DNA of 64,000 nucleotides, from contig NC_036456.1 of the NCBI RefSeq assembly GCF_002775205.1, positions 13,667,463 to 13,731,462 on the forward strand, given 5' to 3'. Below are positions 1 through 51,920 of this stretch, in pieces. The notes under the pieces were generated by a model, which saw only the letters and a list, made by a program, of their open reading frames with translations, was not told the origin of the DNA and ran no database searches. Origin of the DNA: Xiphophorus maculatus. Its lineage: Eukaryota; Chordata; Actinopteri; Cyprinodontiformes; Poeciliidae. Numbering within the stretch: position 1 is the first letter of the stretch; each line of letters begins with the position of its first letter. Position numbers and translations under genes: made by a program.

Positions 1-2160
1 TGGTTGTAGGTGCTGTAGTTGTAGTTGAAGCAGTTGTTATTGTTGTTGGAGCTACTGTTGTTGTGGTTGGAGCTTCTATGGTTGTGGTTGGAGCCGCTGT
101 TGTAGTTGGAGAAGCTGTGGTTGTGGTTGGAGTAGCTGTGGTTGTAGTTGGAGCTGCTGTTGTTGCGCTTGGAGCAGCTGTGGTTGTTGTTGTAGCTACT
201 GTGGTTGTGGTTGTAGCTGCTGTGGTTGTGGTTGTAGCTGCTGTGGTTGTGGTTGGAGCCGCTGTGGTTGTGGTTGGAGCAGCTGTTGTTGTTGGAGCCG
301 CTGTGGTTGTGGTTGTAGCTACTGTGCTTGTTGTTGGAGCAGCTGTGGTTGTGGTTGGAGCCTCTGTTGTTGTGGTTGGAGCAGCTGTGGTTGTGGTTGT
401 AGCTACTGTGGTTGTGGTTGGAGCAGCTGTGGTTGTTGTTGGAGCCGCTGTGGTTGTAGCTACTGTGGTTGTGGTTGTAGCCGCTGTGGTTGTGGTTGGG
501 GAGGCTGTGGTTGTTGTTGGAGCAGCTGTGGTTGTAGCTACTGTGGTTGTGGTTGGAGCAGCTGTGGTTGTTGTTGGAGCCGCTGTGGTTTTAGCTACTG
601 TGGTTGTGGTTGTAGCCGCTGTGGTTGTGGTTGGAGCCGCTGTGGTTGTGGTTGGAGCCGCTGTGGTTGTGGTTGTAGCTGCTGTGGTTGTTGTTGGAGC
701 CGCTGTGGTTGAGGTTGGAGCAGCTGTGGTTGTGGTTGGAGCCTCTGTTGTTGTAGTTGGAGCAACTGTGGTTGTGGTTGTAGCTGCTGTGGTTGTGGTT
801 GGAGCAGCTGTGGTTGTGGTTGGAGCAGCTGTGGTTGTAGTTGTAGCTACTGTGATTGTGGTTGTAGCCGCTGTGGTTGTGGTTGGAGCAGCTGTGGTTG
901 TGGTTGGAGCCTCTGTTGTAGTTGGAGCAGCTGTGGTTGTAGCTACTGTGGTTGTGGTTGGAGCCGCTGTGGTTTTAGCTACTGTGGTTGTGGTTGTAGC
1001 AGCTGTGGTTGTGGTTGGAGCCTCTGTTGTTGTGGTTGGAGCCGCTGTGGTTGTGGTTGGAGCCTCTGTTGTTGTGGTTGGAGCCGCTGTGGTTGTGGTT
1101 GTAGCTGCTGTGGTTGTTGTTGGAGCCGCTGTGGTTGAGGTTGGAGCAGCTGTGGTTGTGGTTGGAGCCTCTGTTGTTGTAGTTGGAGCAACTGTGGTTG
1201 TGGTTGTAGCTGCTGTGGTTGTGGTTGGAGCAGTTGTGGTTGTGGTTGGAGCAGCTGTGGTTGTGGTTGGAGCCTCTGTTGTTGTAGTTGGAGCAACTGT
1301 GGTTGTGGTTGTAGCTGCTGTGGTTGTGGTTGGAGCAGTTGTGGTTGTGGTTGGAGCAGCTGTGGTTGTTGTAGGAGCAGCTGTGGTTGTTGTTGGAGCA
1401 GCTGTGGTTGTGGTTGGAGCCTCTGTTGTTGTGGTTGGAGCAGCTGTGGTTGTGGTTGTAGCTACTGTGGTTGTGGTTGGAGCAGCTGTGGTTGTTGTTG
1501 TAGCCGCTGTGGTTGTGGTTGGGGAGGCTGTGGTTGTTGTTGGAGCAGCTGTGGTTGTAGCTACTGTGGTTGTGGTTGGAGCAGCTGTGGTTGTTGTTGG
1601 AGCCGCTGTGGTTTTAGCTACTGTGGTTGTGGTTGTAGCCGCTGTGGTTGTGGTTGGAGCCGCTGTGGTTGTGGTTGTAGCTGCTGTGGTTGTTGTTGGA
1701 GCCGCTGTGGTTGAGGTTGGAGCAGCTGTGGTTGTGGTTGGAGCCTCTGTTGTTGTAGTTGGAGCAACTGTGGTTGTGGTTGTAGCTGCTGTGGTTGTGG
1801 TTGGAGCAGTTGTGGTTGTGGTTGGAGCAGCTGTGGTTGTTGTAGGAGCAGCTGTGGTTGTGGTTGGAGCAGCTGTGGTTGTAGTTGTAGCTACTGTGAT
1901 TGTGGTTGTAGCCGCTGTGGTTGTGGTTGGAGCAGCTGTGGTTGTGGTTGGAGCCTCTGTTGTAGTTGGAGCAGCTGTGGTTGTAGCTACTGTGGTTGTG
2001 GTTGGAGCCGCTGTGGTTGTAGCTACTGTGGTTGTGGTTGGAGCTGTTGTGGTGGTGGCAGCAGCTGTGGTTGGAGTTGTTGTAGTTGTGGTTGGAACCA
2101 CTGTAGTTGTGGATGGAGCAGTTGTTGTGGTTGGAACCATTGTTGTTGTGGTTGGAGGTG
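1..2160 (-). repeat. Second Thr-mucin repeat exon, runs off left edge
   Basis: The acceptor AATATTACAG (bases 2161-2162 are its AG) is followed by CA, which completes a split Ala codon with the G left by the SEA exon. Protein then reads APPTTTTMVPTTTTAPS and enters the same 21-bp Thr repeat. The minus frame stays open for 719 codons to base 1. Variants such as the Glu-bearing unit and the ATTTT unit recur in the same order at 480-790 and 1510-1770, so this exon also carries larger duplicated blocks. The SEA domain therefore sits between two mucin regions rather than directly before a membrane anchor. Confidence 0.75.
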
Positions 2161-5100
2161 CTGTAATATTTATTGCATTTACCAAATGTGAACAGCTTGG
2201 AAGAACTGAAAAAGATTACAGTTCTTCTAAGCTGTTCTCAAAAAGCTTAGAAGTTATAAGTTCTCAAAAAGATTTTTAGAATATTTTGTTGATCCAACTA
2301 ATTCCTTCATATTTATTGAACAGTGTTTGTTTTCATTTGTCCTTTGCATAAATATTCAATTTTCTTAAATTAGTTTATTCCTCTTACCTGGGTCACTAAT
2401 AGCAACCGTGTCTGCTAGTACGTTGAATTCCGTGATGTTTGAAGCCTCATTAACCAAAATGTCTTTAATTAGTGTATCATTAGGAGACGATGATGACTGA
2501 AATTCAAGGTCCACAGAGTTGATAATTGATCCAGCACTGCAAATGTATTAGCATAATTAGTTATTGTCTACAAGTGCCTTCCTACAAAGTTTATAATTTC
2601 TTGAGCAAACTACGAAGAAATTACCTGAATCTCATGGCTCCAGTCTTTTGGAATGAGGGGAAAGATCTTCTGAAAAGTGGGTCAAGCTATGTGGAGAAAT
2701 TAAGAATGTTAAGTGTACAATTTTAAAAAATGTATTTTTCTGGATATCGCTAGATATAAACATTATTACAATTAATATATTATGTTGTATTGATTTCAAT
2801 AGAAATTCTACATACTCCCCTAATGAAAAAAATGAAAGTATATGGTGTGATGTTGGAGGAAAATTAAGACTACATTCTAGGTAAGCAATACATGTTATAA
2901 TATTTATAAGATAAATATGTATTTTTTAAATTTAGAATAAAACTTAACTCACATCTTCAAGTTGAAGAGATACACAAAATATTTATATACATATAAAAAG
3001 ATATTAATTTATGAAGCAGAATTCATTTTTATAAAAATTACAATGAACACATTTATGTGAGTAAGAAATGTAAACATACACGATTAATTATGTGTCCAGA
3101 GCGTGTTTGGAATCCTGATGTTGATGGGTCTCCCAAATCAGAGGTGAATACTTCATTGGACTTAAAAGTTAGTTGTCTTATTAATGCTGGAGCTGCTATA
3201 CTTGTGGTCGGAGCAGCTGTTGTGGTTGGAACAGCTGTAGTGATAATTGGAGCAGCCGTGTTTGTAGTTGGAGCAGCTGTTGTTGTAGTTGGAGCTTCTC
3301 TGGTTGTAGTTGGAGCCGCTGTGGTTGTGGTTGGAGAAACTGTGGTTGTGGTTGGAGAAACTGTGGTTGTGGTTGGAGCCACTGTGGTTGTAGCTACTGT
3401 GGTTGTGGTTGTAGCCGCTGTGGTTGTGGTTGGAGAAGCTGTGGTTGTTGTTGGAGCAGCTGTGGTTGTAGCTACTGTGGTTGTGGTTGGAGCAGCTGTG
3501 GTTGTAGTTGTAGCTACTGTGGTTGTGGTTGGAGCCGCTGTGGTTGTGGTTGGAGCCGCTGTGGTTGTAGCTGCTGTGGTTGTTGTTGGAGCAGCTGTTG
3601 TTGTGGTTGGAGCAGCTGTGGTTGTAGTTGTAGCTACTGTTGTTGTGGTTGGAGCCGCTGTGGTTGTGGTTGGAGCAGTTGTGGTTGTGGTTGGAGCAGC
3701 TGTGGTTGTTGTTGGAGCAGCTGTGGTTGTAGTTGTAGCTACTGTTGTTGTGGTTGGAGCCGCTGTGGTTGTGGTTGGAACAGTTGTGGTTGTGGTTGGA
3801 GCAGCTGTGGTTGTTGTTGGAGCAGCTGTGGTTGTGGTTGGAGCAGCTGTGGTTGTAGTTATAGCTACTGTGATTGTGGTTGTAGCCGCTGTGGTTGTGG
3901 TTGGAGCAGCTGTGGTTGTGGTTGGAGCCTCAGTTGTAGTTGGAGCAGCTGTGGTTGTGGTTGTAGCTACTGTGGTTGTGGTTGGAGCCGCTGTGGTTTT
4001 AGCTACTGTGGTTGTGGTTGTAGCCGCTGTGGTTGTGGTTGGAGAAGCTGTGGTTGTTGTTGGAGCAGCTGTGGTTGTAGCTACTGTGGTTGTGGTTGGA
4101 GCAGCTGTGGTTGTTGTTGGAGCCGCTGTGGTTGTAGCTACTGTGGTTGTGGTTGTAGCCGCTGTGGTTGTGGTTGGAGAAGCTGTGGTTGTTATTGGAG
4201 CAGCTGTGGTTGTAGCTACTGTGGTTGTGGTTGGAGACGCTGGGGTAGTGGTTGGAGCAGCTGTGGTTGTGGTTGGAGCCTCTGTTGTTGTAGTTGGAGC
4301 AACTGTGGTTGTGGTTGTAGCTACTGTGGTTGTGGTTGGAGCCGCTGTGGTTGTGGTTGGAGCAGTTGAGGTTGTGGTTGGAGCAGCTGTGGTTGTTGTT
4401 GGAGCAGCTGTGGTTGTGGTTGGAGCAGCTGTGGTTGTAGTTGTAGCTACTGTGATTGTGGTTGTAGCCGCTGTGGTTGTGGTTGGAGCAGCTGTGGTTG
4501 TGGTTGGAGCCTCTGTTGTAGTTGGAGCAGCTGTGGTTGTGGTTGTAGCTACTGTGGTTGTGGTTGGAGCTGCTGTGGTTGTGGTTGGAGCCGCTGTGGT
4601 TGTTGTTGGAGCCGCTGTGCTGGTAGTTGTTGCTTCTGTTGTTGTGGTTGTAGCTGCTGTGGTTGTGGTTGGAGCCGCTGTGGTTGTGGTTGGAGCAACT
4701 GTGGTTGTTGTTGGAGACTCTGTGGTTGTGGTTGGAGCAGCTGTGGTTGTGGTTGGAGCAGCTGTGGTTGTAGTTGGAGCAGCTGTGGTTGTCGTTGGAC
4801 CAGCTGTGGTTGTTGTTGGAGCCGTTGTGGTTGTAGCTGCTGTGGTTGTGGTTGTAGCTGCTGTGGTTGTGGTTGGAGCAGCTGTGGTTGTTGTTGGAGG
4901 AGCTGTGGTTGTGGTTGGAGCCTCTGTTGTTGTAGTTGGAGCAGCTGTGGTTGTGGTTGTAGCTAATGTGGTTGTGGTTGTAGCCGCTGTGGTTGTGGTT
5001 GGAGAAGCTGTGGTTGTTGTTGGAGCAGCTGTGGTTGTAGCTACTGTGGTTGTGGTTGGAGCAGCTGTGGTTGTAGTTGTAGCTACTGTGGTTGTGGTTG

Positions 5101-8100
5101 GAGCCGCTGTGGTTGTGGTTGTAGCTGCTGTGGTTGTTGTTGGAGACGCTGTGGTTGTGGTTGGAGCAGCTGTGGTTGTGGTTGGAGCCTCTGTTGTAGT
5201 TGGAGCAGCTGTGGTTGTGGTTGTAGCTTCTGTGGTTGTGGTTGGAGCTGCTGTGGTTGTGGTTGGAGCCGCTGTGGTTGTTGTTGGAGCCGCTGTGGTT
5301 GTAGTTGTTGCTTCTGTTGTTGTGGTTGTAGCTGCTGTGGTTGTGGTTGGAGCCGCTGTGGTTGTGGTTGGAGCAACTGTGGTTGTTGTTGGAGCCTCTG
5401 TGGTTGTGGTTGGAGAAGCTGTGGTTGTAGTTGGAGCAGCTGTGGTTGTCGTTGGACCAGCTGTGGTTGTTGTTGGAGCCGCTGTGGTTGTGGTTGTAGC
5501 TGCTGTGGTTGTGGTTGTAGCTGCTGTGGTTGTGGTTGGAGCAGCTGTGGTTGTGGTTGGAGCAGCTGTGGTTGTTGTTGGAGGAGCTGTGGTTGTGGTT
5601 GGAGCCTCTGTTGTTGTAGTTGGAGCAGCTGTGGTTGTGGTTGTAGCTAATGTGGTTGTGGTTGTAGCCGCTGTGCTTGTGGTTGGAGAAGCTGTGGTTG
5701 TTGTTGGAGCAGCTGTGGTTGTAGCTACTGTGGTTGTGGTTGGAGCAGCTGTGGTTGTAGTTGTAGCTACTGTGGTTGTGGTTGGAGCCGCTGTGGTTGT
5801 GGTTGTAGCTGCTGTGGCTGTTGTTGGAGCCGCTGTGGTTGTGGTTGGAGCAGCTGTGGTGGTGGGTGGAGCCTCTGTTGTTGTAGTTGGAGCAGCTGTG
5901 GTTGTGGTTGTAGCTACTGTGGTTGTGGTTGGAGCCGCTGTGGTTGTTGTTGGAACCGCTGTGGTTGTAGTTGTTGCTGCTGTGGTTGTGGTTGGAGCTG
6001 CTGTGGTTGTGGTTGGAGCCGCTGTTGTTGTGGTTGGAGCAGCTGTGGTTGTTGTTGGAGCCTCTGTGGTTGTGGTTGGAGCAGCTGTGGTTGTAGTTGG
6101 AGCAGCTGTGGTTGTCGTTGGAGCAGCTGTGGTTGTTGTTGGAGTCGCTGTGGTTGTGGTTGTAGCTGGTGTGGTTGTGGTTGGAGCAGCTGTGGTTGTG
6201 GTTGTAGCTGCTGTGGTTGTGGTTGGAGCAGCTGTGGTTGTGGTTGTAGCTGCTGTGGTTGTTGTTGGAGCCGCTGTGGTTGTGGTTGTAGCAGCTGTGG
6301 TTGTGGTTGGAGAAGCTGTGGTTGTTGTTGGAGCAGCTGTGGTTGTAGCTACTGTGGTTGTGGTTGGAGCAGCTGTGGTTGTAGTTGTAGCTACTGTGGT
6401 TGTGGTTGGAGCCGCTGTGGTTGTGGTTGTAGCTGCTGTGGTTGTGGTTGGAGCAGCTGTGGTTGTGGTTGGAGCCTCTGTTGTTGTAGTTGGAGCAACT
6501 GTGGTTGTGGTTGTAGCTACTGTGGTTGTGGTTGGAGCCGGTGTGGTTGTTGTTGGAACCGCTGTGGTTGTAGTTGTTGCTGCTGTGGTTGTGGTTGGAG
6601 CTGCTGTGGTTGTGGTTGGAGCCGCTGTTGTTGTGGTTGGAGCAGCTGTGGTTGTTGTTGGAGCCTCTGTGGTTGTGGTTGGAGCAGCTGTTGTTGTGGT
6701 TGGAGCCGCTGTGGTTGTGGTTGGAGCAGCTGTGGTTGTTGTTGGAGCCTCTGTGGTTGTGGTTGGAGCAGCTGTGGTTGGAGTTGGAGCAGCTGTGGTT
6801 GTTGTTGGAGTCGCTGTGGTTGTGGTTGTAGCTGCTGTGGTTGTGGTTGGAGCAGCTGTGGTTGTTGTTGGAGGAGCTGTTGTTGTGGGTGGAGCAGCTG
6901 TGGTTGTAGTTGTAGCTACTGTTGTTGTGGTTGGAGTCGCTGTGGTTGTGGTTGTAGCTGCTGTGGTTGTGGTTGGAGCAGCTGTGGTTGTTGTTGGAGG
7001 AGCTGTGGTTGTGGTTGTAGCTGCTGTGGTTGTGGTTGGAGCAGCTGTGGTTGTGGTTGTAGCTGCTGTGGTTGTTGTTGGAGCCGCTGTGGTTGTGGTT
7101 GGAGCAGCTGTGGTTGTGGTTGGAGCCTCTGTTGTTGTAGTTGGAGCAGCTGTGGTTGTGGTTGTAGCTACTGTGGTTGTGGTTGGAGCCGCTGTGGTTG
7201 TGGTTGGAGCAGCTGTGGTTGTTGTTGGAGCCTCTGTGGTTGTGGTTGGAGCAGCTGTGGTTGTAGTTGGAGCAGCTGTGGTTGTCGTTGGAGCAGCTGT
7301 GGTTGTTGTTGGAGTCGCTGTGGTTGTTGTTGTAGCTGCTGTGGTTGTGGTTGGAGCAGCTGTGGTTGTGGTTGGAGGAGCTGTGGTTGTGGTTGTAGCT
7401 GCTGTGGTTGTGGTTGGAGCAGCTGTTGTTGTGGTTGGAGCAGCTGTGGTTGTAGTTGTAGCTACTGTTGTTGTGGTTGGAGCCACTGTGGTTGTGGTTG
7501 GAGCAGTTGTGGTTGTGGTTGGAGCAGCTGTGGATGTTGTTGGAGCAGCTGTGGTTGTGGTTGGAGCAGCTGTGGTTGTAGTTGTAGCTACTGTTGTTGT
7601 GGTTGGAGCCGCTGTGGTTGTGGTTGGAGCAGCTGTGATTGTTGTTGGAGCAGCTGTGGTTGTGGTTGGAGCAGCTGTGGTTGTGGTTGGAGCCTCTGTT
7701 GTTGTAGTTGGAGCAGCTGTGGTTGTGGTTGTAGCTACTGTGGTTGTGGTTGGAGCCGCTGTGGTTGTTGTTGGAACCGCTGTGGTTGTAGTTGTTGCTG
7801 CTGTGGTTGTGGTTGTAGCTGCTGTTGTTGTGGTTGGAGCCGCTGTGGTTGTGGTTGGAGCAGCTGTGGTTGTTGTTGGAGCCTCTGTGGTTGTGGTTGG
7901 AGCAGCTGTGGTTGTAGTTGGAGCAGCTGTGGTTGTTGTTGGAGTCGCTGTGGTTGTGGTTGTAGCTGCTGTGGTTGTGGTTGGAGCAGCTGTGGTTGTT
8001 GTTGGAGGAGCTGTTGTTGTGGGTGGAGCAGCTGTGGTTGTAGTTGTAGCTACTGTTGTTGTGGTTGGAGCCGCTGTGGTTGTGGTTGGAGCAGTTGTGG

Positions 8101-11100
8101 TTGTGGTTGGAGCAGCTGTGGTTGTTGTTGGAGCAGCTGTGGTTGTGGTTGGAGCAGCTGTGGTTGTTGTTGGAGCCTCTGTGGTTGTGGTTGGAGCAGC
8201 TGTGGTTGTAGTTGGAGCAGCTGTGGTTGTATTTGTAGCTACTGTGGTTGTGGTTGGAGCCGCTGTGGTTGTGGTTGTAGCTGCTGTGGTTGTTGTTGGA
8301 GCCGCTGTGGTTGTGGTTGGAGCAGCTGTGGTTGTGGGTGGAGCCTCTGTTGTTGTAGTTGGAGCAGCTGTGGTTGTGGTTGTAGCTACTGTGGTTGTGG
8401 TTGGAGCCGGTGCGGTTGTTGTTGGAACCGCTGTGGTTGTAGTTGTTGCTACTGTGGTTGTGGTTGGAGCTGCTGTAGTTGTGGTTGGAGCCGCTGTGGT
8501 TGTTGTTGGAACCGCTGTGGTTGTAGTTGTTGCTGCTGTGGTTGTGGTTGGAGCTGCTGTGGTTGTGGTTGGAGCCGCTGTTGTTGTGGTTGGAGCAGCT
8601 GTGGTTGTTGTTGGAGCCTCTGTGGTTGTGGTTGGAGCAGCTGTGGTTGTAGTTGGAGCAGCTGTGGTTGTCGTTGGAGCAGCTGTGGTTGTTGTTGGAG
8701 TCGCTGTGGTTGTGGTTGTAGCTGGTGTAGTGGTGGTTGGAGCAGCTGTGGTTGTTGTTGGAGGAGCTGTGGTTGTGGTTGTAGCTGCTGTGGTTGTGGT
8801 TGGAGCAGCTGTGGTTGTGGTTGTAGCTGCTGTGGTTGTTGTTGGAGCCGCTGTGGTTGTGGTTGGAGCAGCTGTGGTTGTGGTTGGAGAAGCTGTGGTT
8901 GTTGTTGGAGCAGCTGTGGTTGTAGCTACTGCGGTTGTGGTTGGAGCAGCTGTGGTTGTAGTTGTAGCTACTGTGGTTGTGGTTGGAGCCGCTGTGGTTG
9001 TGGTTGTAGCTGCTGTGGTTGTGGTTGGAGCAGCTGTGGTTGTGGTTGGAGCCTCTGTTGTTGTAGTTGGAGCAACTGTGGTTGTGGTTGTAGCTACTGT
9101 GGTTGTGGTTGGAGCCGGTGTGGTTGTTGTTGGAACCGCTGTGGTTGTAGTTGTTGCTGCTGTGGTTGTGGTTGGAGCTGCTGTGGTTGTGGTTGGAGCC
9201 GCTGTTGTTGTGGTTGGAGCAGCTGTGGTTGTTGTTGGAGCCTCTGTGGTTGTGGTTGGAGCAGCTGTGGTTGTAGTTGGAGCAGCTGTGGTTGTCGTTG
9301 GAGCAGCTGTGGTTGTTGTTGGAGTCGCTGTGGTTGTGGTTGTAGCTGCTGTGGTTGTGGTTGGAGCAGCTGTGGTTGTTGTTGGAGGAGCTGTGGTTGT
9401 GGTTGTAGCTGCTGTGGTTGTGGTTGGAGCAGCTGTGGTTGTGGTTGTAGCTGCTGTGGTTGTTGTTGGAGCCGCTGTGGTTGTGGTTGGAGCAGCTGTG
9501 GTTGTGGTTGGAGCCTCTGTTGTTGTAGTTGGAGCAGCTGTGGTTGTGGTTGTAGCTACTGTGGTTGTGGTTGGAGCCGCTGTGGTTGTGGTTGGAGCAG
9601 CTGTGGTTGTTGTTGGAGCCTCTGTGGTTGTGGTTGGAGCAGCTGTGGTTGTAGTTGGAGCAGCTGTGGTTGTCGTTGGAGCAGCTGTGGTTGTCGTTGG
9701 AGGAGCTGTGGTTGTGGTTGTAGCTGCTGTGGTTGTGGTTGGAGTAGCTGTGGTTGTGGTTGGAGCAGCTGTGGTTGTAGTTGTAGCTACTGTTGTTGTG
9801 GTTGGAGCCACTGTGGTTGTGGTTGGAGCAGTTGTGGTTGTGGTTGGAGCAGCTGTGGATGTTGTTGGAGCAGCTGTGGTTGTGGTTGGAGCAGCTGTGG
9901 TTGTAGTTGTAGCTACTGTTGTTGTGGTTGGAGCCACTGTTGTTGTGGTTGGAGCCACTGTGGTTGTGGTTGGAGCAGTTGTGGTTGTGGTTGGAGCCGC
10001 TGTGGTTGTGGTTGGAGCAGCTGTGATTGTTGTTGGAGCAGCTGTGGTTGTGGTTGGAGCAGCTGTGGTTGTGGTTGGAGCCTCTGTTGTTGTAGTTGGA
10101 GCAGCTGTGGTTGTGGTTGTAGCTACTGTGGTTGTGGTTGGAGCCGCTGTGGTTGTTGTTGGAACCGCTGTGGTTGTAGTTGTTGCTGCTGTGGTTGTGG
10201 TTGTAGCTGCTGTTGTTGTGGTTGGAGCCGCTGTGGTTGTGGTTGGAGCAGCTGTGGTTGTTGTTGGAGCCTCTGTGGTTGTGGTTGGAGCAGCTGTGGT
10301 TGTAGTTGGAGCAGCTGTGGTTGTTGTTGGAGTCGCTGTGGTTGTGGTTGTAGCTGCTGTGGTTGTGGTTGGAGCAGCTGTGGTTGTTGTTGGAGGAGCT
10401 GTTGTTGTGGGTGGAGCAGCTGTGGTTGTAGTTGTAGCTACTGTTGTTGTGGTTGGAGCCGCTGTGGTTGTGGTTGGAGCAGTTGTGGTTGTGGTTGGAG
10501 CAGCTGTGGTTGTTGTTGGAGCAGCTGTGGTTGTGGTTGGAGCAGCTGTGGTTGTTGTTGGAGCCTCTGTGGTAGTGGTTGGAGCAGCTGTGGTTGTAGT
10601 TGGAGCAGCTGTGGTTGTAGTTGTAGCTACTGTGGTTGTGGTTGGAGCCGCTGTGGTTGTGGTTGTAGCTGCTGTGGTTGTTGTTGGAGCCGCTGTGGTT
10701 GTGGTTGGAGCAGCTGTGGTTGTGGGTGGAGCCTCTGTTGTTGTAGTTGGAGCAGCTGTGGTTGTGGTTGTAGCTACTGTGGTTGTGGTTGGAGCCGGTG
10801 TGGTTGTTGTTGGAACCGCTGTGGTTGTAGTTGTTGCTGCTGTGGTTGTGGTTGGAACTGCTGTGGTTGTGGTTGGAGCCGCTGTTGTTGTGGTTGGAGC
10901 AGCTGTGGTTGTAGTTGGAGCAGCTGTGGTTGTCGTTGGAGCAGCTGTGGTTGTTGTTGGAGCCGCTGTGGTTGTGGTTGTAGCTGGTGTGGTTGTGGTT
11001 GGAGCAGCTGTGGTTGTTGTTGTAGGAGCTGTGGTTGTGGTTGTAGCTGCTGTGGTTGTGGTTGGAGCAGCTGTGGTTGTGGTTGTAGCTGCTGTGGTTG

Positions 11101-14100
11101 TTGTTGGAGCCGCTGTGGTTGTGGTTGGAGCAGCTGTGGTTGTGGTTGGAGAAGCTGTGGTTGTTGTTGGAGCAGCTGTGGTTGTAGCTACTGTGGTTGT
11201 GGTTGGAGCAGCTGTGGTTGTAGTTGTAGCTACTGTGGTTGTGGTTGGAGCCGCTGTGGTTGTGGTTGTAGCTGCTGTGGTTGTTGTTGGAGCCGTTGTG
11301 GTTGGAGCAGCTGTGGTTGTGGTTGGAGCCTCTGTTGTTGTAGTTGGAGCAACTGTGGTTGTGGTTGTAGCTACTGTGGTTGTGGTTGGAGCCGGTGTGG
11401 TTGTTGTTGGAACCGCTGTGGTTGTAGTTGTTGTTGCTGTGGTTGTGGTTGGAGCTGCTGTGGTTGTGGTTGGAGCCGCTGTTGTTGTGGTTGGAGCAGC
11501 TGTGGTTGTTGTTGGAGCCTCTGTGGTTGTGGTTGGAGCAGCTGTGGTTGTAGTTGGAGCAGCTGTGGTTGTCGTTGGAGAAGCTGTGGTTGTTGTTGGA
11601 GTCGCTGTGGTTGTGGTTGTAGCTGCTGTGGTTGTGGTTGGAGCAGCTGTGGTTGTTGTTGGAGGAGCTGTGGTTGTGGTTGTAGCTGCTGTGGTTGTGG
11701 TTGGAGCAGCTGTGGTTGTGGTTGTAGCTGCTGTGGTTGTTGTTGGAGCCGCTGTGGTTGTGGTTGGAGCAGCTGTGGTTGTGGTTGGAGCCTCTGTTGT
11801 TGTAGTTGGAGCAGCTGTGGTTGTGGTTGTAGCTACTGTGGTTGTGGTTGGAGCCGCTGTTGTTGTGGTTGGAGCAGCTGTGGTTGTTGTTGGAGCCTCT
11901 GTGGTTGTGGTTGGAGCAGCTGTGGTTGTAGTTGGAGCAGCTGTGGTTGTCGTTGGAGCAGCTGTGGTTGTTGTTGGAGTCGCTGTGGTTGTTGTTGTAG
12001 CTGCTGTGGCTGTGGTTGGAGCAGCTGTGGTTGTTGTTGGAGGAGCTGTGGTTGTGGTTGTAGCTGCTGTGGTTGTGGTTGGAGCAGCTGTTGTTGTGGT
12101 TGGAGCAGCTGTGGTTGTAGTTGTAGCTACTGTTGTTGTGGTTGGAGCCACTGTGGTTGTGGTTGGAGCAGTTGTGGTTGTGGTTGGAGCAGCTGTGGTT
12201 GTTGTTGGAGCAGCTGTGGTTGTGGTTGGAGCAGCTGTGGTTGTAGTTGTAGCTACTGTTGTTGTGGTTGGAGCCGCTGTGGTTGTGGTTGGAGCAGCTG
12301 TTGTTGTGGTTGGAGCAGCTGTGGTTGTAGTTGTAGCTACTGTTGTTGTGGTTGGAGCCGCTGTGGTTGTGGTTGGAGCAGTTGTGGTTGTGGTTGGAGC
12401 AGCTGTGGTTGTGGTTGGAGCAGCTGTGGTTGTGGTTGGAGCAGCTGTGATTGTTGTTGGAGCAGCTGTGGTTGTGGTTGGAGCAGCTGTGGTTGTGGTT
12501 GGAGCCTCTGTTGTTGTAGTTGGAGCAGCTGTGGTTGTGGTTGTAGCTACTGTGGTTGTGGTTGGAGCCGCTGTGGTTGTTGTTGGAACCGCTGTGGTTG
12601 TAGTTGTTGCTGCTGAGGTTGTGGTTGTAGCTGCTGTGGTTGTGGTTGGAGCCGCTGTGGTTGTGGTTGGAGCAGCTGTGGTTGTTGTTGGAGCCTCTGT
12701 GGTTGTGGTTGGAGCAGCTGTGATTGTAGTTGGAGCAGCTGTGGTTGTCGTTGGAGCAGCTGTGGTTGTTGTTGGAGTCGCTGTGGTTGTGGTTGTAGCT
12801 GCTGTGGTTGTGGTTGGAGCAGCTGTGGTTGTTGTTGGAGGAGCTGTGGTTGTGGTTGTAGCTGCTGTGGTTGTGGTTGGAGCAGCTGTTGTTGTGGTTG
12901 GAGCAGCTGTGGTTGTAGTTGTAGCTACTATTGTTGTGGTTGGAGCCGCTGTGGTTGTGGTTGGAGCAGTTGTGGTTGTGGTTGGAGCAGCTGTGGTTGT
13001 GGTTGGAGCAGCTGTGGTTGTGGTTGGAGCAGCTGTGATTGTTGTTGGAGCAGCTGTGGTTGTGGTTGGAGCAGCTGTGGTTGTGGTTGGAGCCTCTGTT
13101 GTTGTAGTTGGAGCAGCTGTGGTTGTGGTTGTAGCTACTGTGGTTGTGGTTGGAGCCGCTGTGGTTGTTGTTGGAACCGCTGTGGTTGTAGTTGTTGCTG
13201 CTGAGGTTGTGGTTGTAGCTGCTGTGGTTGTGGTTGGAGCCGCTGTGGTTGTGGTTGGAGCAGCTGTGGTTGTTGTTGGAGCCTCTGTGGTTGTGGTTGG
13301 AGCAGCTGTGATTGTAGTTGGAGCAGCTGTGGTTGTCGTTGGAGCAGCTGTGGTTGTTGTTGGAGTCGCTGTGGTTGTGGTTGTAGCTGCTGTGGTTGTG
13401 GTTGGAGCAGCTGTGGTTGTTGTTGGAGGAGCTGTGGTTGTGGTTGTAGCTGCTGTGGTTGTGGTTGGAGCAGCTGTTGTTGTGGTTGGAGCAGCTGTGG
13501 TTGTAGTTGTAGCTACTATTGTTGTGGTTGGAGCCGCTGTGGTTGTGGTTGGAGCAGTTGTGGTTGTGGTTGGAGCAGCTGTGGTTGTGGTTGGAGCAGC
13601 TGTGGTTGTGGTTGGAGCAGCTGTGATTGTTGTTGGAGCAGCTGTGGTTGTGGTTGGAGCAGCTGTGGTTGTGGTTGGAGCCTCTGTTGTTGTAGTTGGA
13701 GCAGCTGTGGTTGTGGTTGTAGCTACTGTGGTTGTGGTTGGAGCCGCTGTGGTTGTTGTTGGAACCGCTGTGGTTGTAGTTGTTGCTGCTGAGGTTGTGG
13801 TTGTAGCTGCTGTGGTTGTGGTTGGAGCCGCTGTGGTTGTGGTTGGAGCAGCTGTGGTTGTTGTTGGAGCCTCTGTGGTTGTGGTTGGAGCAGCTGTGAT
13901 TGTAGTTGGAGCAGCTGTGGTTGTCGTTGGAGCAGCTGTGGTTGTTGTTGGAGTCGCTGTGGTTGTGGTTGTAGCTGCTGTGGTTGTGGTTGGAGCAGCT
14001 GTGGTTGTTGTTGGAGGAGCTGTGGTTGTGGTTGTAGCTGCTGTGGTTGTGGTTGGAGCAGCTGTTGTTGTGGTTGGAGCAGCTGTGGTTGTAGTTGTAG

Positions 14101-17100
14101 CTACTGTTGTTGTGGTTGGAGCCGCTGTGGTTGTGGTTGGAGCAGTTGTGGTTGTGGTTGGAGCAGCTGTGGTTGTTGTTGGAGCAGCTGTGGTTGTGGT
14201 TGGAGCAGCTGTGGTTGTAGTTGTAGCTACTGTGGTTGTGGTTGTAGCCGCTGTGGTTGTGGTTGGAGCAGCTGTGGTAGTGGTTGGAGCCTCTGTTGTT
14301 GTAGTTGGAGCACCTGTGTTTGTGGTTGTAGCTACTGTGGTTGTGGTTGGAGTCGCTGTGGTTGTGGTTGGAGCCGCTGTGGTTGTTGTTGGAGCCGCTG
14401 TGGTTGTAGTTGCTGCTGCTGTGGTTGTGGTTGGAGCCTCTGTGGTTGTGGTTGGAGCAGCTGTGGTTGTAGTTGGAACAGCTGTGGTTGTGGTTGGAGC
14501 AGCTGTGGTTGTTGTTGGAGCCGCTGTGGTTGTAGCTACTGTGGTTGTGGTTGTAGCCGCTGTGGTTGTGGTTGGAGAAGCTGTGGTTGTTGTTGGAGCC
14601 GCTGTGGTTGTGGTTGTAGCCGCTGTGGTTGTTGTTGGAGCCGCTGTCGTTGTGGTTGGAGCAGCTGTGGTTGTGGTTGGAGCCTCTGTTGTTGTAGTTG
14701 GAGCAACTGTGGTTGTGGTTGTAGCTACTGTGGTTGTGGTTGGAGCCGCTGTGGTTGTTGTTGGAACCGCTGTGGTTGTTGTTGGAGGAGCTGTGGTTGT
14801 GGTTGTAGCTGCTGTGGTTGTGGTTGGAGCAGCTGTTGTTGTGGTTGGAGCAGCTGTGGTTGTAGTTGTAGCTACTGTTGTTGTGGTTGGAGCCGCTGTG
14901 GTTGTGGTTGGAGCAGTTGTGGTTGTGGTTGGAGCAGCTGTGGTTGTTGTTGGAGCAGCTGTGGTTGTGGTTGGAGCAGCTGTGGTTGTAGTTGTAGCTA
15001 CTGTGGTTGTGGTTGTAGCCGCTGTGGTTGTGGTTGGAGCAGCTGTGGTTGTGGTTGGAGCCTCTGTTGTTGTAGTTGAAGCAGCTGTGGTTGTGGTTGT
15101 AGCTACTGTGGTTGTGGTTGGAGCCGCTGTGGTTGTGGTTGGAGCCGCTGTGGTTGTGGTTGGAGCAACTGTGGTTGTGGTTGGAGCCTCTGTGGTTGTC
15201 GTTGGACCAGCTGTGGTTGTGGTTGTAGCAGCTGTGGTTGTGGTTGTAGCTGCTGTGGTTGTGGTTGTACCTGCTGTGGTTGTGGTTGGAGCAGCTGTGG
15301 TTGTGGGTGGAGCAGCTGTGGTTGTTGTTGGAGGAGCTGTGGTTGTAGTTGCTGTGGTAGTGGTTGTAGCTGCTGTGGTTGTGGTTGGAGCAGCTGTGGT
15401 TGTGGTTGTAGCTACTGTGGTTGTGGTTGTAGCTGCTGTGGTTGTGGTTGTAGCTGCTGTGGTTGTGGTTGGAGCCGCTGAGGTTGTTGTTGGAGGTACT
15501 GTGGTTGTGGTTGGAGCCACTGTGGTTATGGTTGGAGCCGCTGTGGTTGTGGTTGGAGCAGTTGTGGTTGTGGTTGGTGCAGCTGTGGTTGTTGTTGGAG
15601 CCGCTGTGTTTGTGGTTGGAGCTGCTGTGGTTGTGGTTGGAGCCGCTGTGGTTGTGGTTGTAGCTGCTGTGGTTGTTGTTGGAGCCGCTGTGGTTGTGGT
15701 TGGAGCAGCTGTGGTTGTGGTTGGTGCCTCTGTTGTTGTAGTTGGAGCAGCTGTGGTTGTGGTTGTAGCTACTGTGGTTGTAGTTGGAGCAGCTGTGGTT
15801 GTGGTTGTAGCTACTGTGGTTGTGGTTGTAGCTGCTGTGGTTGTGGTTGTAGCTGCTGTGGTTGTGGTTGGAGCCGCTGTGGTTGTTGTTGGAGGTACTG
15901 TGGTTGTGGTTGGAGCCACTGTGGTTATGGTTGGAGCCGCTGTGGTTGTGGTTGGAGCCGTTGTGGTTGGAGCCGCTGTGGTTGTAGTTGTTGCTGCTGT
16001 TGTTGTGGTTGTAGCTTCTGTGGTTGTGGTTGGAGCTGCTGTGGATGTTGTTGGAGCAACTGTGGTTGTGGTTGGAGCCTCTGTGGTTGTCGTTGGACCA
16101 GCTGTGGTTGTGGTTGGAGCAGCTGTGGTTGTGGTTGTAGCTGCTGTGGTTGTGGTTGTAGCTGCTGTGGTTGTGGTTGGAGCAGCTGTGGTTGTGGGTG
16201 GAGCAGCTGTGGTTGTTGTTGGAGGAGCTGTGGTTGTAGTTGCTGTGGTAGTGGTTGTAGCTGCTGTGGTTGTGGTTGGAGCAGCTGTGGTTGTGGTTGT
16301 AGCTACTGTGGTTGTGGTTGTAGCTGCTGTGGTTGTGGTTGTAGCTGCTGTGGTTGTGGTTGGAGCCGCTGTGGTTGTTGTTGGAGCTACTGTGGTTGTG
16401 GTTGGAGCCGCTGTGGTTGTGGTTGGAGCAGCTGTGGTTGTGGTTGGTGCCTCTGTAGTTGGAGCAGCTGTGGTTGTGGTTGGAGCAGCTGTGGTTGTGG
16501 TTGGTGCCTCTGTAGTTGGAGCAGCTGTGGTTGTGGTTGTAGCTACTGTGGTTGTGGTTGTAGCTGCTGTGGTTGTGGTTGTAGCTGCTGTGATTGTGGT
16601 TGGAGCCGCTGTGGTTGTTGTTGGAGCTACTGTGGTTGTGGTTGGAGCCACTGTGGTTGTGGTTGGAGCAGCTGTGGTTGTGGTTGGAGCCGTTGAGGTT
16701 GGAGCTGCTGTGGTTGTGGTTGGAGCAGCTGTGGTTGTGGTTGTAGCTGCTGTTGTTGTTGTTGGAGCCGCTGTGGTTGTGGTTGGAGCAGCTGTGGTTG
16801 TGGTTGGAGCCTCTGTGGTTGTAGTTGGAGTTGCTGTGGTTGTGGTTGGAGCAGCTGTGGTTGTGGTTGTAGCTGCTGTTGTTGTTGTTGGAGCCGCTGT
16901 GGTTGTGGTTGGAGCAGCTGTGGTTGTGGTTGGAGCCTCTGTGGTTGTAGTTGGAGCAACTGTGGTTGTGGTTGGAGGAGCTGTGGTTGTGGTTGTAGAA
17001 ACTGTTGTTGTAGTTGGTGCTTCTGTGGTTGTAGTTGGAGCAGCTGCAGTTGTGGTTGGAGCAGCTGTGGTTGTGGTTGGAGCTGTTGTGGTTGTGGTTG

Positions 17101-18422
17101 GAGCCACAGTGGTTGTAGTTGGAACAGCTGTAGTTGTGGTTGTAGTAGCTGTGGTCGTGGATGGAGCCTCTGTGGTTGTGGTTGTAGCAACTGTTGTTGT
17201 AGTTGGAGCTTCTGTGGTTGTAGTTGGAACTGCTGCAGTTGTGGTTCGAGCAGCTGTGGTTGTGGTTGGAGCTGTTGTGGTTGTGGTTGGAGCCACAGTG
17301 GTTGTAGTTGGAACAGCTGTAGTTGTAGTTGGAACAGCTGTGGTTGTAGTTGCAATAACTGTGGTTGCTGTTGGAGCAGCTGTAGTTGTTGTTGGAGCAG
17401 CTGTAGTTGTAGTTGGAGCCGCTGTTGTTGTGGTTGGAGCCACTGTAGTTGTAGTTGGAGCCACTGTGGTTGTAGTTGGAGCCACTGTGTTTGTAGTTGG
17501 AGCCGTTGTGGTTGTAGTTGGAATAACTGTGGTTGTGGTTTGAGCCGCTGTGGTTGTGGTTGGAGCCTCTGTGGTTGTGGTTGGAGCTGTTGTGGTTGTG
17601 GTTGGAGCCACAGTGGTTGTAGTTGCAACAGCTATAGTTGTAGTTGGAACCGCTGTAGTTGTAGTTGGAGCCTCTGTGGTTGTAGTTGGAGCAGCTGTGG
17701 TTGTAGTTGGAGCCGCTGTTGTTGTGGTTGGAGCCGCTGTAGTTGTAGTTGGAGCCGCTGTGGTTGTAGTTGGAGCAGCTGTGGTTGTAGTTGGAGCTGC
17801 TGTTGTTGTGGTTGGAGCTGCTGTAGTTGTAGTTGGAGCCGCTGTTGTTGTGGTTGGAGCCGCTGTGGTTGTAGTCGCTGTGGTTGTAGTTGGAGCTGCT
17901 GTGGTTGTAGTTTGAACATCTGTGGTTGTGGTTGGATCTGTTGTGGTTGTAGTTGGAGCAACTGTGGTTGTAGTTGGAACATCTGTGGTTGTAGTTGGAG
18001 CAACTGTGGTTGTAGTTGGAGCAGCTGTGGTTGTAGTTTCAGCGGCTGTGGTTGTTGTTGGAGCTACTATTGTAGTAGTAGTAGCTGTGGTTGTAGTTGG
18101 AGCAGCTGTGGTTGTTGTTGTAACAGCTGTGGTTGTAGTTGGAGCAGCTGTTGTTGTAGTTGGAGCAGCTGCTGTTATCTGAGCTGTAGTTGTTGTTATC
18201 TGTGTTACTACTGAATCAAGAAAACAGTTTATTAATCCTTATTATTATTCACATATAGAGATTTTTGTTTGCTCTACTGAGATTTACGTTATTTTGTGCA
18301 GCTCTTTTGGAGCTAAAATCATATATTCAGGACCGTGTCTTTCCACCCTCAACCTTATTTTGTCTAATCTCTTACTTACCTGCTAGGATTAGTAGCAATG
18401 GTATTACGTTTCCAACCCCCAT
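1..18422 (-). CDS. Giant SEA-domain mucin-like gene, 3' end outside window
   Basis: Model: complement of join(<1..2160, 2388..2536, 2625..2686, 3080..18210, 18380..18422). All junctions have GT donors and AG acceptors and the reading phase is kept across every one (1, 0, 2, 1). The first 14 codons plus a split Val give a signal peptide (MGVGNVIPLLLILAVV). About 5,000 residues of Thr-rich heptad-like repeat follow, then an SEA domain (about residues 5028-5128), then a second Thr-rich region. At least 5,848 residues are encoded in the window. This is the layout of a secreted or membrane mucin whose Thr residues would be densely O-glycosylated. Whether it ends in a transmembrane segment cannot be seen. 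The open frame continues upstream of the GTG at 17611 to the splice acceptor at 18211-18212, so the giant exon is longer than a start-codon-based ORF suggests. The orthologue is not recognisable from repeat sequence alone. Confidence 0.8.
2388..2686 (-). CDS. SEA domain exons of the giant mucin gene
   Basis: Two exons, 2686-2625 (62 nt) and 2536-2388 (149 nt), complete the SEA domain begun at the end of the giant exon. Acceptors are TTTCTCCACATAG and ACATTTGCAG; donors are ATTCAG|GTAATT and CCCAG|GTAAGAG. The spliced protein reads HIINR-LDPLFRRSFPSFQK, then MRFSAGSIINSVDLEF, then a DTLIKDILVNEAS-type helix and a short strand ending VAISDP. The FxxGSIIN segment matches the G-S-[VI]-[VI] autocleavage site of SEA domains, at about residues 5081/5082 and one codon past the exon junction. 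SEA domains of this family fold around the cleaved bond and hold the two mucin subunits together. Self-cleavage here is inference from the motif. Confidence 0.8.
3080..18210 (-). repeat. 15.1-kb single exon of 21-bp Thr-mucin repeats
   Basis: This exon holds 5,043 complete codons with no stop. The unit is 21 bp on the minus strand, coding for variants of TTTT[AV]A[PT]. Common substitutions put Glu, Val, Pro, Ser or Ile at the positions after the Thr run. Thr makes up more than half of the residues, Ala and Pro most of the rest. Cys is absent, and aromatic residues are absent, from the repeat part. The last 36 codons change character (LTFKSNEVFTSDLGDPSTSG and onward) and start an SEA domain. 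The exon ends CGT|GTATGT. Repeats are packed into higher-order blocks (see findings). Because 21 is divisible by 3 and the unit lacks stops in several frames, both strands show long shadow ORFs. Confidence 0.85.
12340..14100 (-). repeat. Three tandem 588-bp higher-order blocks in the mucin exon
   Basis: A rare unit variant reading GTGATTGTTG on the plus strand (an ITAAP unit in protein) occurs at 12447, 13035 and 13623, exactly 588 bp apart. A second rare variant, TGCTGAGG, occurs at 12611, 13199 and 13787 with the same spacing. A third, CTACTATTG, is seen only in the first two copies. So 28 heptads (196 residues) were duplicated as a block at least twice and recently enough to stay nearly identical. 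Confidence 0.85.
18380..18422 (-). CDS. Signal-peptide exon of the giant mucin gene
   Basis: ATG at 18422-18420 is followed by 14 codons reading MGVGNVIPLLLILA, with one base left over. The donor is CAG|GTAAGT (donor bases 18379-18374). The leftover G joins TA of the next exon to make GTA (Val), after which the protein runs TQITTTTAQ into the repeats. The hydrophobic run of about 12 residues suits a cleaved signal peptide. TTTACGTTGCAG just upstream looks like a splice acceptor, so an untranslated first exon probably lies further up. I see no TATA box close by. Intron 1 is only 169 bp. Confidence 0.75.
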
Positions 18423-19334
18423 CCTTTTCTGATCTTTAGTCTGCAACGTAAAGAAAATCTATCTTAATCAATTTTCAATGTCATCTCCATAATTTTTTGT
18501 AGTAACTGAGCCTTTATTATGTGCTAAACCCATTTTATTTTGATATGTTTTTAAAGTTTTTTCAGTAAACTTTAAGTCTTGTTTCATCCAAATTCTTTCT
18601 TGATCACATTTGTGGACACATAACAGCAAAGATGAAACAAAATCACCTCAAAAACAGAAAGTAAATAATGTTATTTAATAAAATGGTTTCTATTACTTTT
18701 GTATTGACATGTTCCTATTCTTTAATCAAATGAGTGATGTGGTAATACTTCAACAAAGTAGCTAAGCTACTGAAATCATGACTAAATTAAGTCATTATGT
18801 CATTCATATGTATAAATTAACCGACTAATTCTTTAAACTAAGTACAATCTGTATTTTTTGAGTTTAATATTTGTGTAGGTGATGTCTCATTTAAATCATT
18901 CAACTGGTCAAAACACAAATCACAACAACTTTTATCTTTTAAGGAGAGTAGTTTAATTGCTCTCCCCAAAATGAGATAGAGCTAGATAGAGCTTATAGGT
19001 TGCCAAAATTTTTAGTGTTTCAGAAAATTAGCCTAACCTTAATATTAAATTGTGATTCAAGGATGAGTAGTTTTTGTCTTATATACTACTTCTTAATTAT
19101 TCTGCAGAGGAAATCAGTGCAACAAATGGAAAATGCTGATTGTGATGAAACAAGGAGCAGTCACATGGTTCACTTATTTTTCTCTCTTGGGTTCAGTTCA
19201 AGCAGCGTGAAGGATTGTGGGTATTCAACTATCATTACTGGTCTTGCATGCACTTCTCTCTAAATACATAATATTGAAACTATGAATGAGTCAAAGGTCC
19301 ATTGTTTGGAAGTCATGTGGAATAAAAAAAGAAT

Positions 19335-20381: not shown

Positions 20382-20483
20382 CTGCAGCTGTATTCAAGTT
20401 CAAGTGCTTCTTTAAAACTTTCCTGCTGCTCCCTTAACTCATCAGATGCCACAATGATGTTGGCCCTTATATATAACCTGCAT
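20382..20483 (-). CDS. Candidate internal coding exon, family unknown
   Basis: The segment is bounded by a good acceptor (CGTCGTCCTACTTTTCAG) and a consensus donor (CTGCAG|GTAAGTGG). Only one frame is open. It gives 33 residues containing RLYIRANIIVASDELREQQ and ending ALELEYSC. The composition is protein-like rather than random. A segment at about 20643-20680 ends CAGAG|GTAAGC in a matching phase and contains an ATG, so it could be a start exon, but an in-frame stop sits just before it. I do not recognise the protein. Confidence 0.4.
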
Positions 20484-50849: not shown

Positions 50850-51920
50850 AGGCAGAGATCCACGGATGGTAAGACTCGCCCATGAGCGTTCTTTTCCAGA
50901 AGCTTATTTTCTGCAGAAAATAACTATGATGTCGGTGATCATGAAGTGTTGGCAGTTAAACTGGCACTAGAGAAGTGGAGGCATTGAGTGGAGGGAGCTA
51001 AGGAACCCTTTGTGATTTGGTCAGACCATAAAAATTTGCAGTATCTCAAGGTAGCAAAGAGACTCAACCCCAGGTGGATCTTACTCTTCAATTGTTTCAA
51101 TTTCTCACTGTCTTACTGACCTGGGAGTAAGAACATCAACCCTTATGCACTTTCCATGAAACTACGGAGGAGAGACAGGAGGTCAGGCAGGTGGTAGTTC
51201 AGTGTGACGTATTATTTTGACTATATGCTATTGGGAACCATATAGACATGCTTCCCAAGTCTATATAGTTAACAGTTACCAAACCTGAACTGGATCAGAA
51301 AATGCGGGAGACCCATCAGCAAACCCTGAGGTTCTCTCATTTTGTCATGAGTCTGTCATCCTGGAGTTACTAGGACGGTGGTCAGAAGTTGTTTCTGGGA
51401 GGAAACTTTGCTTCACGATGTCACATAATACATCAGAACTTGCCGGTTTGCTGCCAGGCTAAACCATCCAGTTGACCACCTTCTGGGCTCCTGTAACCTC
51501 TCTCTATTGCTCACTGTCCCTGATCCCACAAATTCATGGATTTTGTAATAGATTTGCCCAATGATCACTCTGTCCTTCTCATGATTGTAGATCGATTCTC
51601 TAGGACGTCCCACTAGGTACCACTTCACAAACTTTTTTCCAAGGAGCTAAGAGGGATTCTGACTCGAGAAAATTTCTCCTGTCTAAAGACATTGTTTCAG
51701 ATGGATGACCAAAGTTTGTTTGCAGTTTTTAAACAGTTCTGTTGTATGCTGGGTATCAAGGTAAGCCTCTCATCGGGACTTCACCCACAAACCCACAGGC
51801 AAACTGAGAGGATCAACTAAGAAGCGGAAACAAAGCTGCGAAAGCTCTGTGAGCATGATCCATCTTCATGGTCTCATAACTTTACACTCACTGTCAAACA
51901 TGCTTGTGCAAGCATGATGT
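50850..51920 (+). pseudogene. Ty3/gypsy pol relic (RNase H and integrase)
   Basis: From about 50897 one frame reads [20 protein letters not shown] and LALEKWRH, a stop, [20 protein letters not shown]. This is the RNase H region of gypsy elements. Downstream come PGSKNINPYALS (usual PGSKNxxPDALSR), then LMIVDRFSR (integrase core, usual VDRFSK), then [19 protein letters not shown] with the conserved HPQT-GQTER site altered at one residue. Many in-frame stops and frame changes break it. Reverse transcriptase, gag and LTRs were not found, so it is an old truncated copy. Confidence 0.8.

Follow-up and report, generated by a model that had tools for sequence, protein, structure and literature searches.

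The 64,000-nucleotide stretch of Xiphophorus maculatus DNA analyzed here (the window, C14:13667463-13731462) contains on its reverse strand an exon of 15,131 bp (exon A, 3080..18210 (-)) that is built almost entirely from a 21-bp tandem repeat encoding the heptad PTTTTAA. Judging from its sequence and its genomic setting, the probable product of exon A is the outer stalk of a very large, densely O-glycosylated, cell-surface SEA mucin, and the exon opens the series of array exons in a tandem family of genes of this kind. What makes the exon special is not that its frame is open but that it contains no frame-shifting insertion or deletion (indel) at all, and comparison with the introns of the same locus makes selection on the array reading frame appear well supported. 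Within that frame, codon comparisons support the view that the threonine codons have been held while the other codons change.

Exon A comprises two bases that close a phase-1 codon, followed by exactly 5,043 codons without a single stop, and it has splice sites at both ends (acceptor ...TTGATTCAG, donor GTATGT). A first-pass annotation made from the sequence alone had placed a single exon of 5,043 codons at 18210-3080 (-), open throughout and derived nearly all from a 21-bp unit; its extent proved exact, and 697 of the 729 units recovered in a codon-level parse have the full seven codons. The array proper (3179..18175 (-)) has zero bases off register. Tandem Repeats Finder reports the 21-bp array at positions 1-18171 with a score of 19,951, a repeat that is beyond chance. 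The commonest units are PTTTTAA (302), TTTTTAA (86), PTTTTVA (71) and PTTTTEA (48), and the encoded residues are 59.5% Thr, 23.0% Ala and 11.5% Pro, with most threonines sitting in runs (482 runs of four and 165 of five). A large Pro/Thr/Ser-type tandem-repeat domain within one exon, as seen in SEA-type mucins, is thus present, in a version that is rich in Thr and Pro and in which Ser accounts for only 0.7%.

Exon A is coding exon 2 of a gene (gene 1) that extends past the window edge and whose remainder was read from the window's own assembly (704 Mb). The resulting model has 14 coding exons, 13 GT-AG introns and a coding sequence of 19,743 nt for 6,580 amino acids, with no internal stops. 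Its parts follow each other in the order signal exon, array A, SEA x, array B, a pair of SEA y modules with a short Thr-rich exon between them, SEA w and C-terminus. An N-terminal signal peptide, which is a trait of SEA-type mucins, is recognizable by inspection: the start codon and signal peptide (MGVGNVIPLLLILA) occupy an exon of their own (18380..18440 (-); ATG at 18422, coding 18422-18380) with a phase-1 donor GTAAGT and an acceptor at 18441 read by eye. Further upstream, a TATA-like element, likewise found by eye (20467..20475 (-)), lies upstream of what may be a non-coding 5' exon with its donor after 20382. At its other end, exon A runs in frame into the first part of SEA x (ALIRQLTFKSNEVF...SGHIINR, 3080..3187 (-)), which continues in a second exon (LDPLFRRSFPSFQKTGAMRF, 2625..2686 (-)) and a third (AGSIINSVDLEF...AISDP, 2388..2536 (-)). 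The joined domain matches Pfam SEA (PF01390) at 8.2e-9 and 36 bits, above the cut-off of 26.4, and this in-frame SEA start bears out the earlier description of exon A as a single SEA-mucin exon. Beyond SEA x lies array exon B (1..2205 (-)), the second of the two PTTTTAA arrays, which keeps to the same frame. This exon is cut by the window edge; the assembly shows it continuing for another 509 bases past window position 1, to a total of 2,714 bp.

The SEA domain typical of this mucin type is carried by SEA x and by SEA w, which matches PF01390 at 5.7e-8, also above the cut-off, while SEA y reaches 6.5e-5 and 23.4 bits, below the 26.4 cut-off (one y copy was scanned, and the second is near-identical). 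The site in SEA x and w that corresponds to the SEA autoproteolysis motif, which we take to be G-SVVV, reads GSIIN. The 6,580-residue model contains only two Cys, and with regard to VWD, C8 and cystine-knot domains, Pfam scans of the non-array parts of gene 1 returned SEA and one weak unrelated match. The chain ends in VSSGVSHKISLIMAFCMVLLSWMLSSQH (GTQVSSGVSHKISLIMAFCMVLLSWMLSSQH in fuller form), that is, a stretch of small residues and then a terminal hydrophobic run with no basic tail. Because no basic residue follows the hydrophobic run, we read this C-terminus as a putative glycosylphosphatidylinositol (GPI) signal. No transmembrane segment with a cytoplasmic tail was found in the chain, which ends in the hydrophobic run, and the product is therefore classed as a mucin variant, outside the transmembrane class.

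Gene 1 heads a same-strand run of 275 kb that comprises six SEA genes and a seventh, SEA-less relative. The signal exons of the six genes lie at C14:13685884, 13657576, 13635274, 13612503, 13558419 and 13501704; the signal-exon region of gene 1 has DNA homologues immediately 5' of genes 4-6, and a similar short signal exon (MGLKGILMILLMLN) is found immediately 5' of genes 2 and 3. SEA homology identified 33 SEA starts across the cluster, and a Thr-rich open frame lies directly upstream of every one of them (33/33). This count leaves out two matches to the third SEA exon (13571871 and 13509123), for which no start was found at the threshold used. Thr content is 46-60% in 28 of these frames and 35-37% in the other five, which lead into SEA w in genes 1, 2, 4, 5 and 6. 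Genes 1-6 hold 6,117, 4,330, 3,294, 11,296, 12,509 and 24,956 open Thr-rich codons, respectively (sum 62,502), figures that may reach some codons into the intron upstream of each exon. The longest product, that of gene 6, would be about 25,000 residues; this gene includes an open reading frame (ORF) of 9,964 codons (C14:13420613-13450504 (-)), about twice the size of exon A, that ends in a SEA y start. Gene 7 (C14:13410521-13414537 (-)) consists of a single Thr-rich ORF of 1,339 codons with a GPI-like tail of the same kind, and no SEA start or third SEA exon was matched there. Altogether, nine tail copies occur in the seven genes, and in each of them the hydrophobic run is followed by a stop codon no more than a few residues later. 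There are two tail copies in gene 4 (13573671 and 13571601) and two in gene 5 (13510919 and 13508856), every one of them preceded by a third SEA exon; such pairs may represent alternative 3' ends or small extra genes. A genome-wide look in the same assembly gave 527 matches.

The absence of stops in exon A is weak evidence of selection, because Thr, Pro and Ala codons are at least two changes away from a stop. Only 0.2% of single-step changes to the array unit create a nonsense codon, and under random substitution of the unit (200 simulations) the coding frame remained stop-free in 91%, 52% and 5% of runs at about 193, 714 and 1,357 substitutions; the argument that missing stops imply selection was rejected on these grounds. 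Two other frames of exon A are open as well, one in the sense direction over 4,679 codons and one antisense over 4,820 codons. As to phase, every one of the 43 phase jumps within arrays A and B leaves out three or six bases of the unit (10 classes by size and position), and no base of the two arrays in the window is off register.

For a test of frame retention, the locus holds its own neutral control in the paralogous introns between the arrays, and copies enough for a clear answer. The neutral rate was taken from the introns of 15 paralogous module pairs among 19 modules in the cluster, leaving out x of gene 3 (which carries an insertion), y of genes 3-6 and all w modules. These pairs differ by 312 substitutions (310 in a first count) and 53 indels, 31 of them of 1-2 bp. 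The length of 47 indels is not a multiple of three, and 17 of these 47 lie outside homopolymer or dinucleotide runs, which gives 0.15 frameshifting indels per substitution, or 0.05 outside simple runs. Introns differ at 312 of 10,805 sites and SEA exons at 54 of 3,043. Duplicated array segments were then collected from all 33 exons with exact 90-base seeds and a diagonal search, excluding 90-base words present more than 40 times. All 1,525 segments are in coding phase, and the non-redundant set of 172 segments (80,275 bp) contains 551 substitutions and zero frameshifts, where the intron rate predicts 83 (30 at the strict rate; Poisson 9e-37 and 9e-14, values that are only indicative because they presuppose that events are independent and that introns and arrays mutate alike). 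For the arrays of the window alone, 137 substitutions would be accompanied by 20.6 (7.5) frameshifts (P of 1e-9 and 6e-4). Moreover, the SEA starts were picked by homology and not by openness, and the ascertainment problem of the original exon is therefore reduced. Thus, the proposal of selection on the frame made in the first-pass annotation holds, but mainly through the frameshifts missing relative to the introns of the locus, more than through the missing stops.

The substitutions in the array duplicates also differ sharply between codon classes. When changes are left unpolarized and counted half to each side, the 14,916 Thr codons show 100.5 nonsynonymous versus 102 synonymous changes (ratio 0.49), and the 11,924 other codons show 279.5 versus 69 (ratio 2.03; Fisher 1.5e-13). 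Per codon, the synonymous rate is similar in the two classes. A corresponding contrast appears among the unit types, where a spanning tree gives 45/47 nonsynonymous/synonymous changes for Thr and 72/26 for other codons (p=6e-4). Frequencies of variants in exons A and B point in the same direction: of those present in more than 15 of the 781 units, none out of 20 Thr-destroying variants qualifies, compared to 8/18 at the P/A sites and 8/18 synonymous ones (Fisher 9e-4). This threshold was chosen post hoc; four other thresholds give p values from 0.0025 to 0.027, and rank tests p=0.04 and 0.09.

Several observations weigh against the interpretation offered here. The overall ratio of nonsynonymous to synonymous rates (dN/dS) is 0.98 among singleton units (18 synonymous, 36 nonsynonymous; 47 of 101 singletons without a one-step parent dropped), 1.11 in duplicates of the window's arrays (42/95), 1.09 in duplicates across the cluster (171/380) and 0.79 in the spanning tree of unit types (73/117, p=0.12). 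By the usual test the array therefore looks unconstrained, and uniform purifying selection on the peptide is not supported by any of these values; to judge from the codon split, opposite pressures on threonine and spacer codons can be masked when dN/dS is 1 overall. Among the one-step tips, which are young singletons in exons A and B, the split is not significant (17/13 versus 27/12, p=0.32), and GC-to-AT mutation bias at the GC-rich Ala and Pro codons may account for part of the P/A excess. With respect to the frame, the introns may misrepresent the neutral rate at which the array itself mutates, and dropping the run-associated indels cuts the expected frameshifts almost threefold. A calibration on duplicated sequence of the window that lies outside the arrays (117 substitutions, 4 indels, 3 of them not a multiple of three) predicts only about 14 frameshifts per 551 substitutions; it was replaced by the introns because it is too small and partly coding. 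Finally, the GPI signal was judged by eye, the gene boundaries are deduced from signal exons and tails although genes 4 and 5 have two tails each, and what we say of expression, glycosylation and anchoring of the gene 1 product is presumptive.

How else could the array have stayed open? One alternative holds that a nonsense-proof unit and length changes in multiples of three suffice, so that no selection on the frame is needed. The low nonsense opportunity, the zero stops expected at low to moderate divergence, the two other long open frames and the overall dN/dS of about 1 all agree with this, as does the commonest indel, which is a 6-bp slip inside the unit. As a full account it is nonetheless very improbable, since the intron comparison argues strongly against it: indels of 1-2 bp make up more than half of the intron events (31/53) and are absent from array duplicates with 551 substitutions, and each of the 33 exons leads in frame into a SEA start. 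A different concern is that array lengths have been inflated or deflated by mis-assembly of near-identical copies, such as a 588-bp triplicate in exon A (3 mismatches in 1,350 bp); this repeat and blocks of up to 4.2 kb are hard to assemble, but the 324 kb of assembly sequence read contain no N and many copies can be told apart by substitutions, and although these points weigh little, we consider the mis-assembly explanation unlikely.

The organization of the locus and the anchoring of its products leave room for two further alternatives. All array exons were found on one strand, which would also be expected if the 275-kb run were one gene, or were partly spliced into read-through transcripts, instead of six or seven genes. 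However, each of the six signal-peptide exons lies immediately 5' of a first array exon, and GPI-like tails with stop codons stand between the last array of a gene and the next signal exon, so that there is little to be said for a single gene. The idea that the product is a secreted or transmembrane Thr-rich glycoprotein rather than a GPI-anchored one deserves more weight and is a minority possibility, given that the hydrophobic C-terminal run could be a short membrane anchor and that membrane-bound SEA mucins have been described with a membrane-spanning region (PMC3680472). Against it stand all nine tails (9/9): the chain stops no more than a few residues past the hydrophobic run, neither Lys nor Arg occurs beyond that run, and small residues (SSG) come before it.

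Returning to the reading of exon A as the stalk of a tethered SEA mucin, the runs of at least four threonines would carry O-glycans and produce a stiff stalk, the SEA modules may serve as folded links or breakable joints, and a GPI anchor in exchange for the C-terminal tail would tether the molecule without a cytoplasmic tail. As the copy patterns suggest, unequal exchange and slippage would multiply single 21-bp units as well as blocks that can reach several kb, and would act within an exon, between exons and between some genes of the cluster. The unit is built of codons that are almost never one change from a stop. An indel that shifted the frame would cost the protein its SEA domains and its anchor, and selection would remove such changes, with threonine kept and the proline and alanine positions free to drift or diversify.

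The internal structure of the arrays fits such an origin by unequal exchange and slippage, with exchange between neighboring exons and some genes. Identity between units falls with distance, being 0.85 for a spacing of 21 bp and 0.72 for one of 588 bp, and the array ends are more degenerate (0.87 and 0.90 identity to the consensus, versus mostly 0.91-0.93 inside). Besides the 588-bp triplicate, exon A contains an internal duplicate pair of 252 bp, and across the cluster block duplications of high identity reach 4.2 kb. Within gene 1, exons A and B have in common a 197-bp stretch with 2 mismatches and exact matches of up to 143 bp, and high-identity segments are common to genes 4, 5 and 6, whereas none was detected between gene 1 and the other cluster genes with a 90-base seed. 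As a separate observation, a degenerate PTTTTAA x2 pattern occurs in 58 prokaryote and 25 viral stretches, by eye Thr-rich parts of unrelated ORFs, in which SEA homology was not searched; many of the prokaryote stretches come from actinobacterial metagenome genomes, several of them from one genome. The heptad seems to have arisen repeatedly.

Elsewhere in the window, a neighbor gene at 24587-31639 (-) has by eye a similar plan, with a possible signal exon (ATG near 32726) and a Ser/Thr-rich frame of 2,351 codons followed by a stop. It has no Pfam match at E<=1 and carries an internal 666-bp duplication with 94.6% identity (25915-26570 and 28645-29309). The neighboring cntf gene reported in the first-pass annotation could not be confirmed: none of the selected ORFs tested has a CNTF family match at E<=1, CNTF is not among the PDB matches listed for these ORFs, and an approximate human CNTF probe found nothing credible, although a divergent cntf is possible. 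What had been called cntf is perhaps a pair of tandem ORF copies at 54773-55096 and 60750-61118 (+), which share 77% protein identity and have no family assigned. A fragment at 51617-51817 (+) resembles a retrotransposon integrase by eye, with a weak IS481 transposase match (E=0.09), and Rfam gave no match at the gathering threshold.

The wider relevance of the locus is twofold. Formal tests of selection on frame retention in exonic variable-number tandem repeats (VNTRs) are stated to be lacking in a 2025 review (PMC12776774), and the intron-calibrated count at this cluster is one such test. In addition, the exon A array has just two Arg and a single Lys among its roughly 5,000 residues and would therefore be missed by standard tryptic proteomics, and short reads would misassemble it; together, these two blind spots may be why such genes go unnoticed.

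Exon A had been called extreme even for mucins, a view that does not survive comparison with human mucin exons as long or longer and with the 9,964-codon ORF of the cluster itself. Exon 2 of MUC3A is the same size as exon A (15,873 bp, 5,291 amino acids), and lengths of 39,267 bp and 32,428 bp are given for MUC3B and MUC12 (PMC9578598); exon 3 of MUC16 is estimated at more than 21 kb (PMC5338267), and a MUC4 allele reaches 27,843 bp (PMC13345508). The human MUC3 cluster (MUC3A, MUC3B, MUC12 and MUC17) resembles the locus described here in being a gene cluster with one giant Pro/Thr/Ser exon (exon 2 in MUC3A/B) and a SEA domain. Here, however, several SEA modules alternate with arrays, the C-terminus is GPI-signal-like, and the unit is a nearly Ser-free heptad compared to 17 residues in MUC3A/B. 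MUC16 has several SEA-type domains in one chain, in tandem-repeat units that contain SEA domains, and in a PDB search the sole match of SEA x, a weak one (E=0.61), was 1ivz, presumably the SEA domain of mouse Muc16. Like exon A, the very large exon 3 of MUC16 is on the N-terminal side (PMC5338267), and the glycosylated N-terminal domain of MUC16 is followed by a 19-unit tandem-repeat domain (PMC10829539), whereas in the Xiphophorus cluster the SEA modules stand singly, with arrays as long as about 9,900 codons between them.

A third point of comparison is provided by fish antifreeze glycoproteins, in which short, cleavable LIF, LNF or FNF spacers punctuate the chain. Neither these spacers nor TAATAA occur in exon A (0 each), and SEA domains and a tail are present here. 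The likeness to the Thr-Ala-Ala repeats of the antifreeze proteins consists in a Thr/Ala-rich expansion that gives O-glycosylation sites (PMC12776774). Limited literature searches turned up no class of giant GPI-anchored poly-SEA mucins. The locus is unusual in that arrays and SEA modules alternate, the chain has a GPI-like end, the seven-residue unit contains almost no Ser and the cluster is so large, with one member of about 25,000 predicted residues exceeding the longest reported human MUC12 protein allele of 23,080 amino acids (PMC13345508). We put the chances at even that these genes represent a new class, giant GPI-anchored poly-SEA mucins in a 275-kb cluster of which about two thirds would be Thr-rich coding sequence, combined with frame retention above the intron expectation and with selection on the threonines but not on the spacers.

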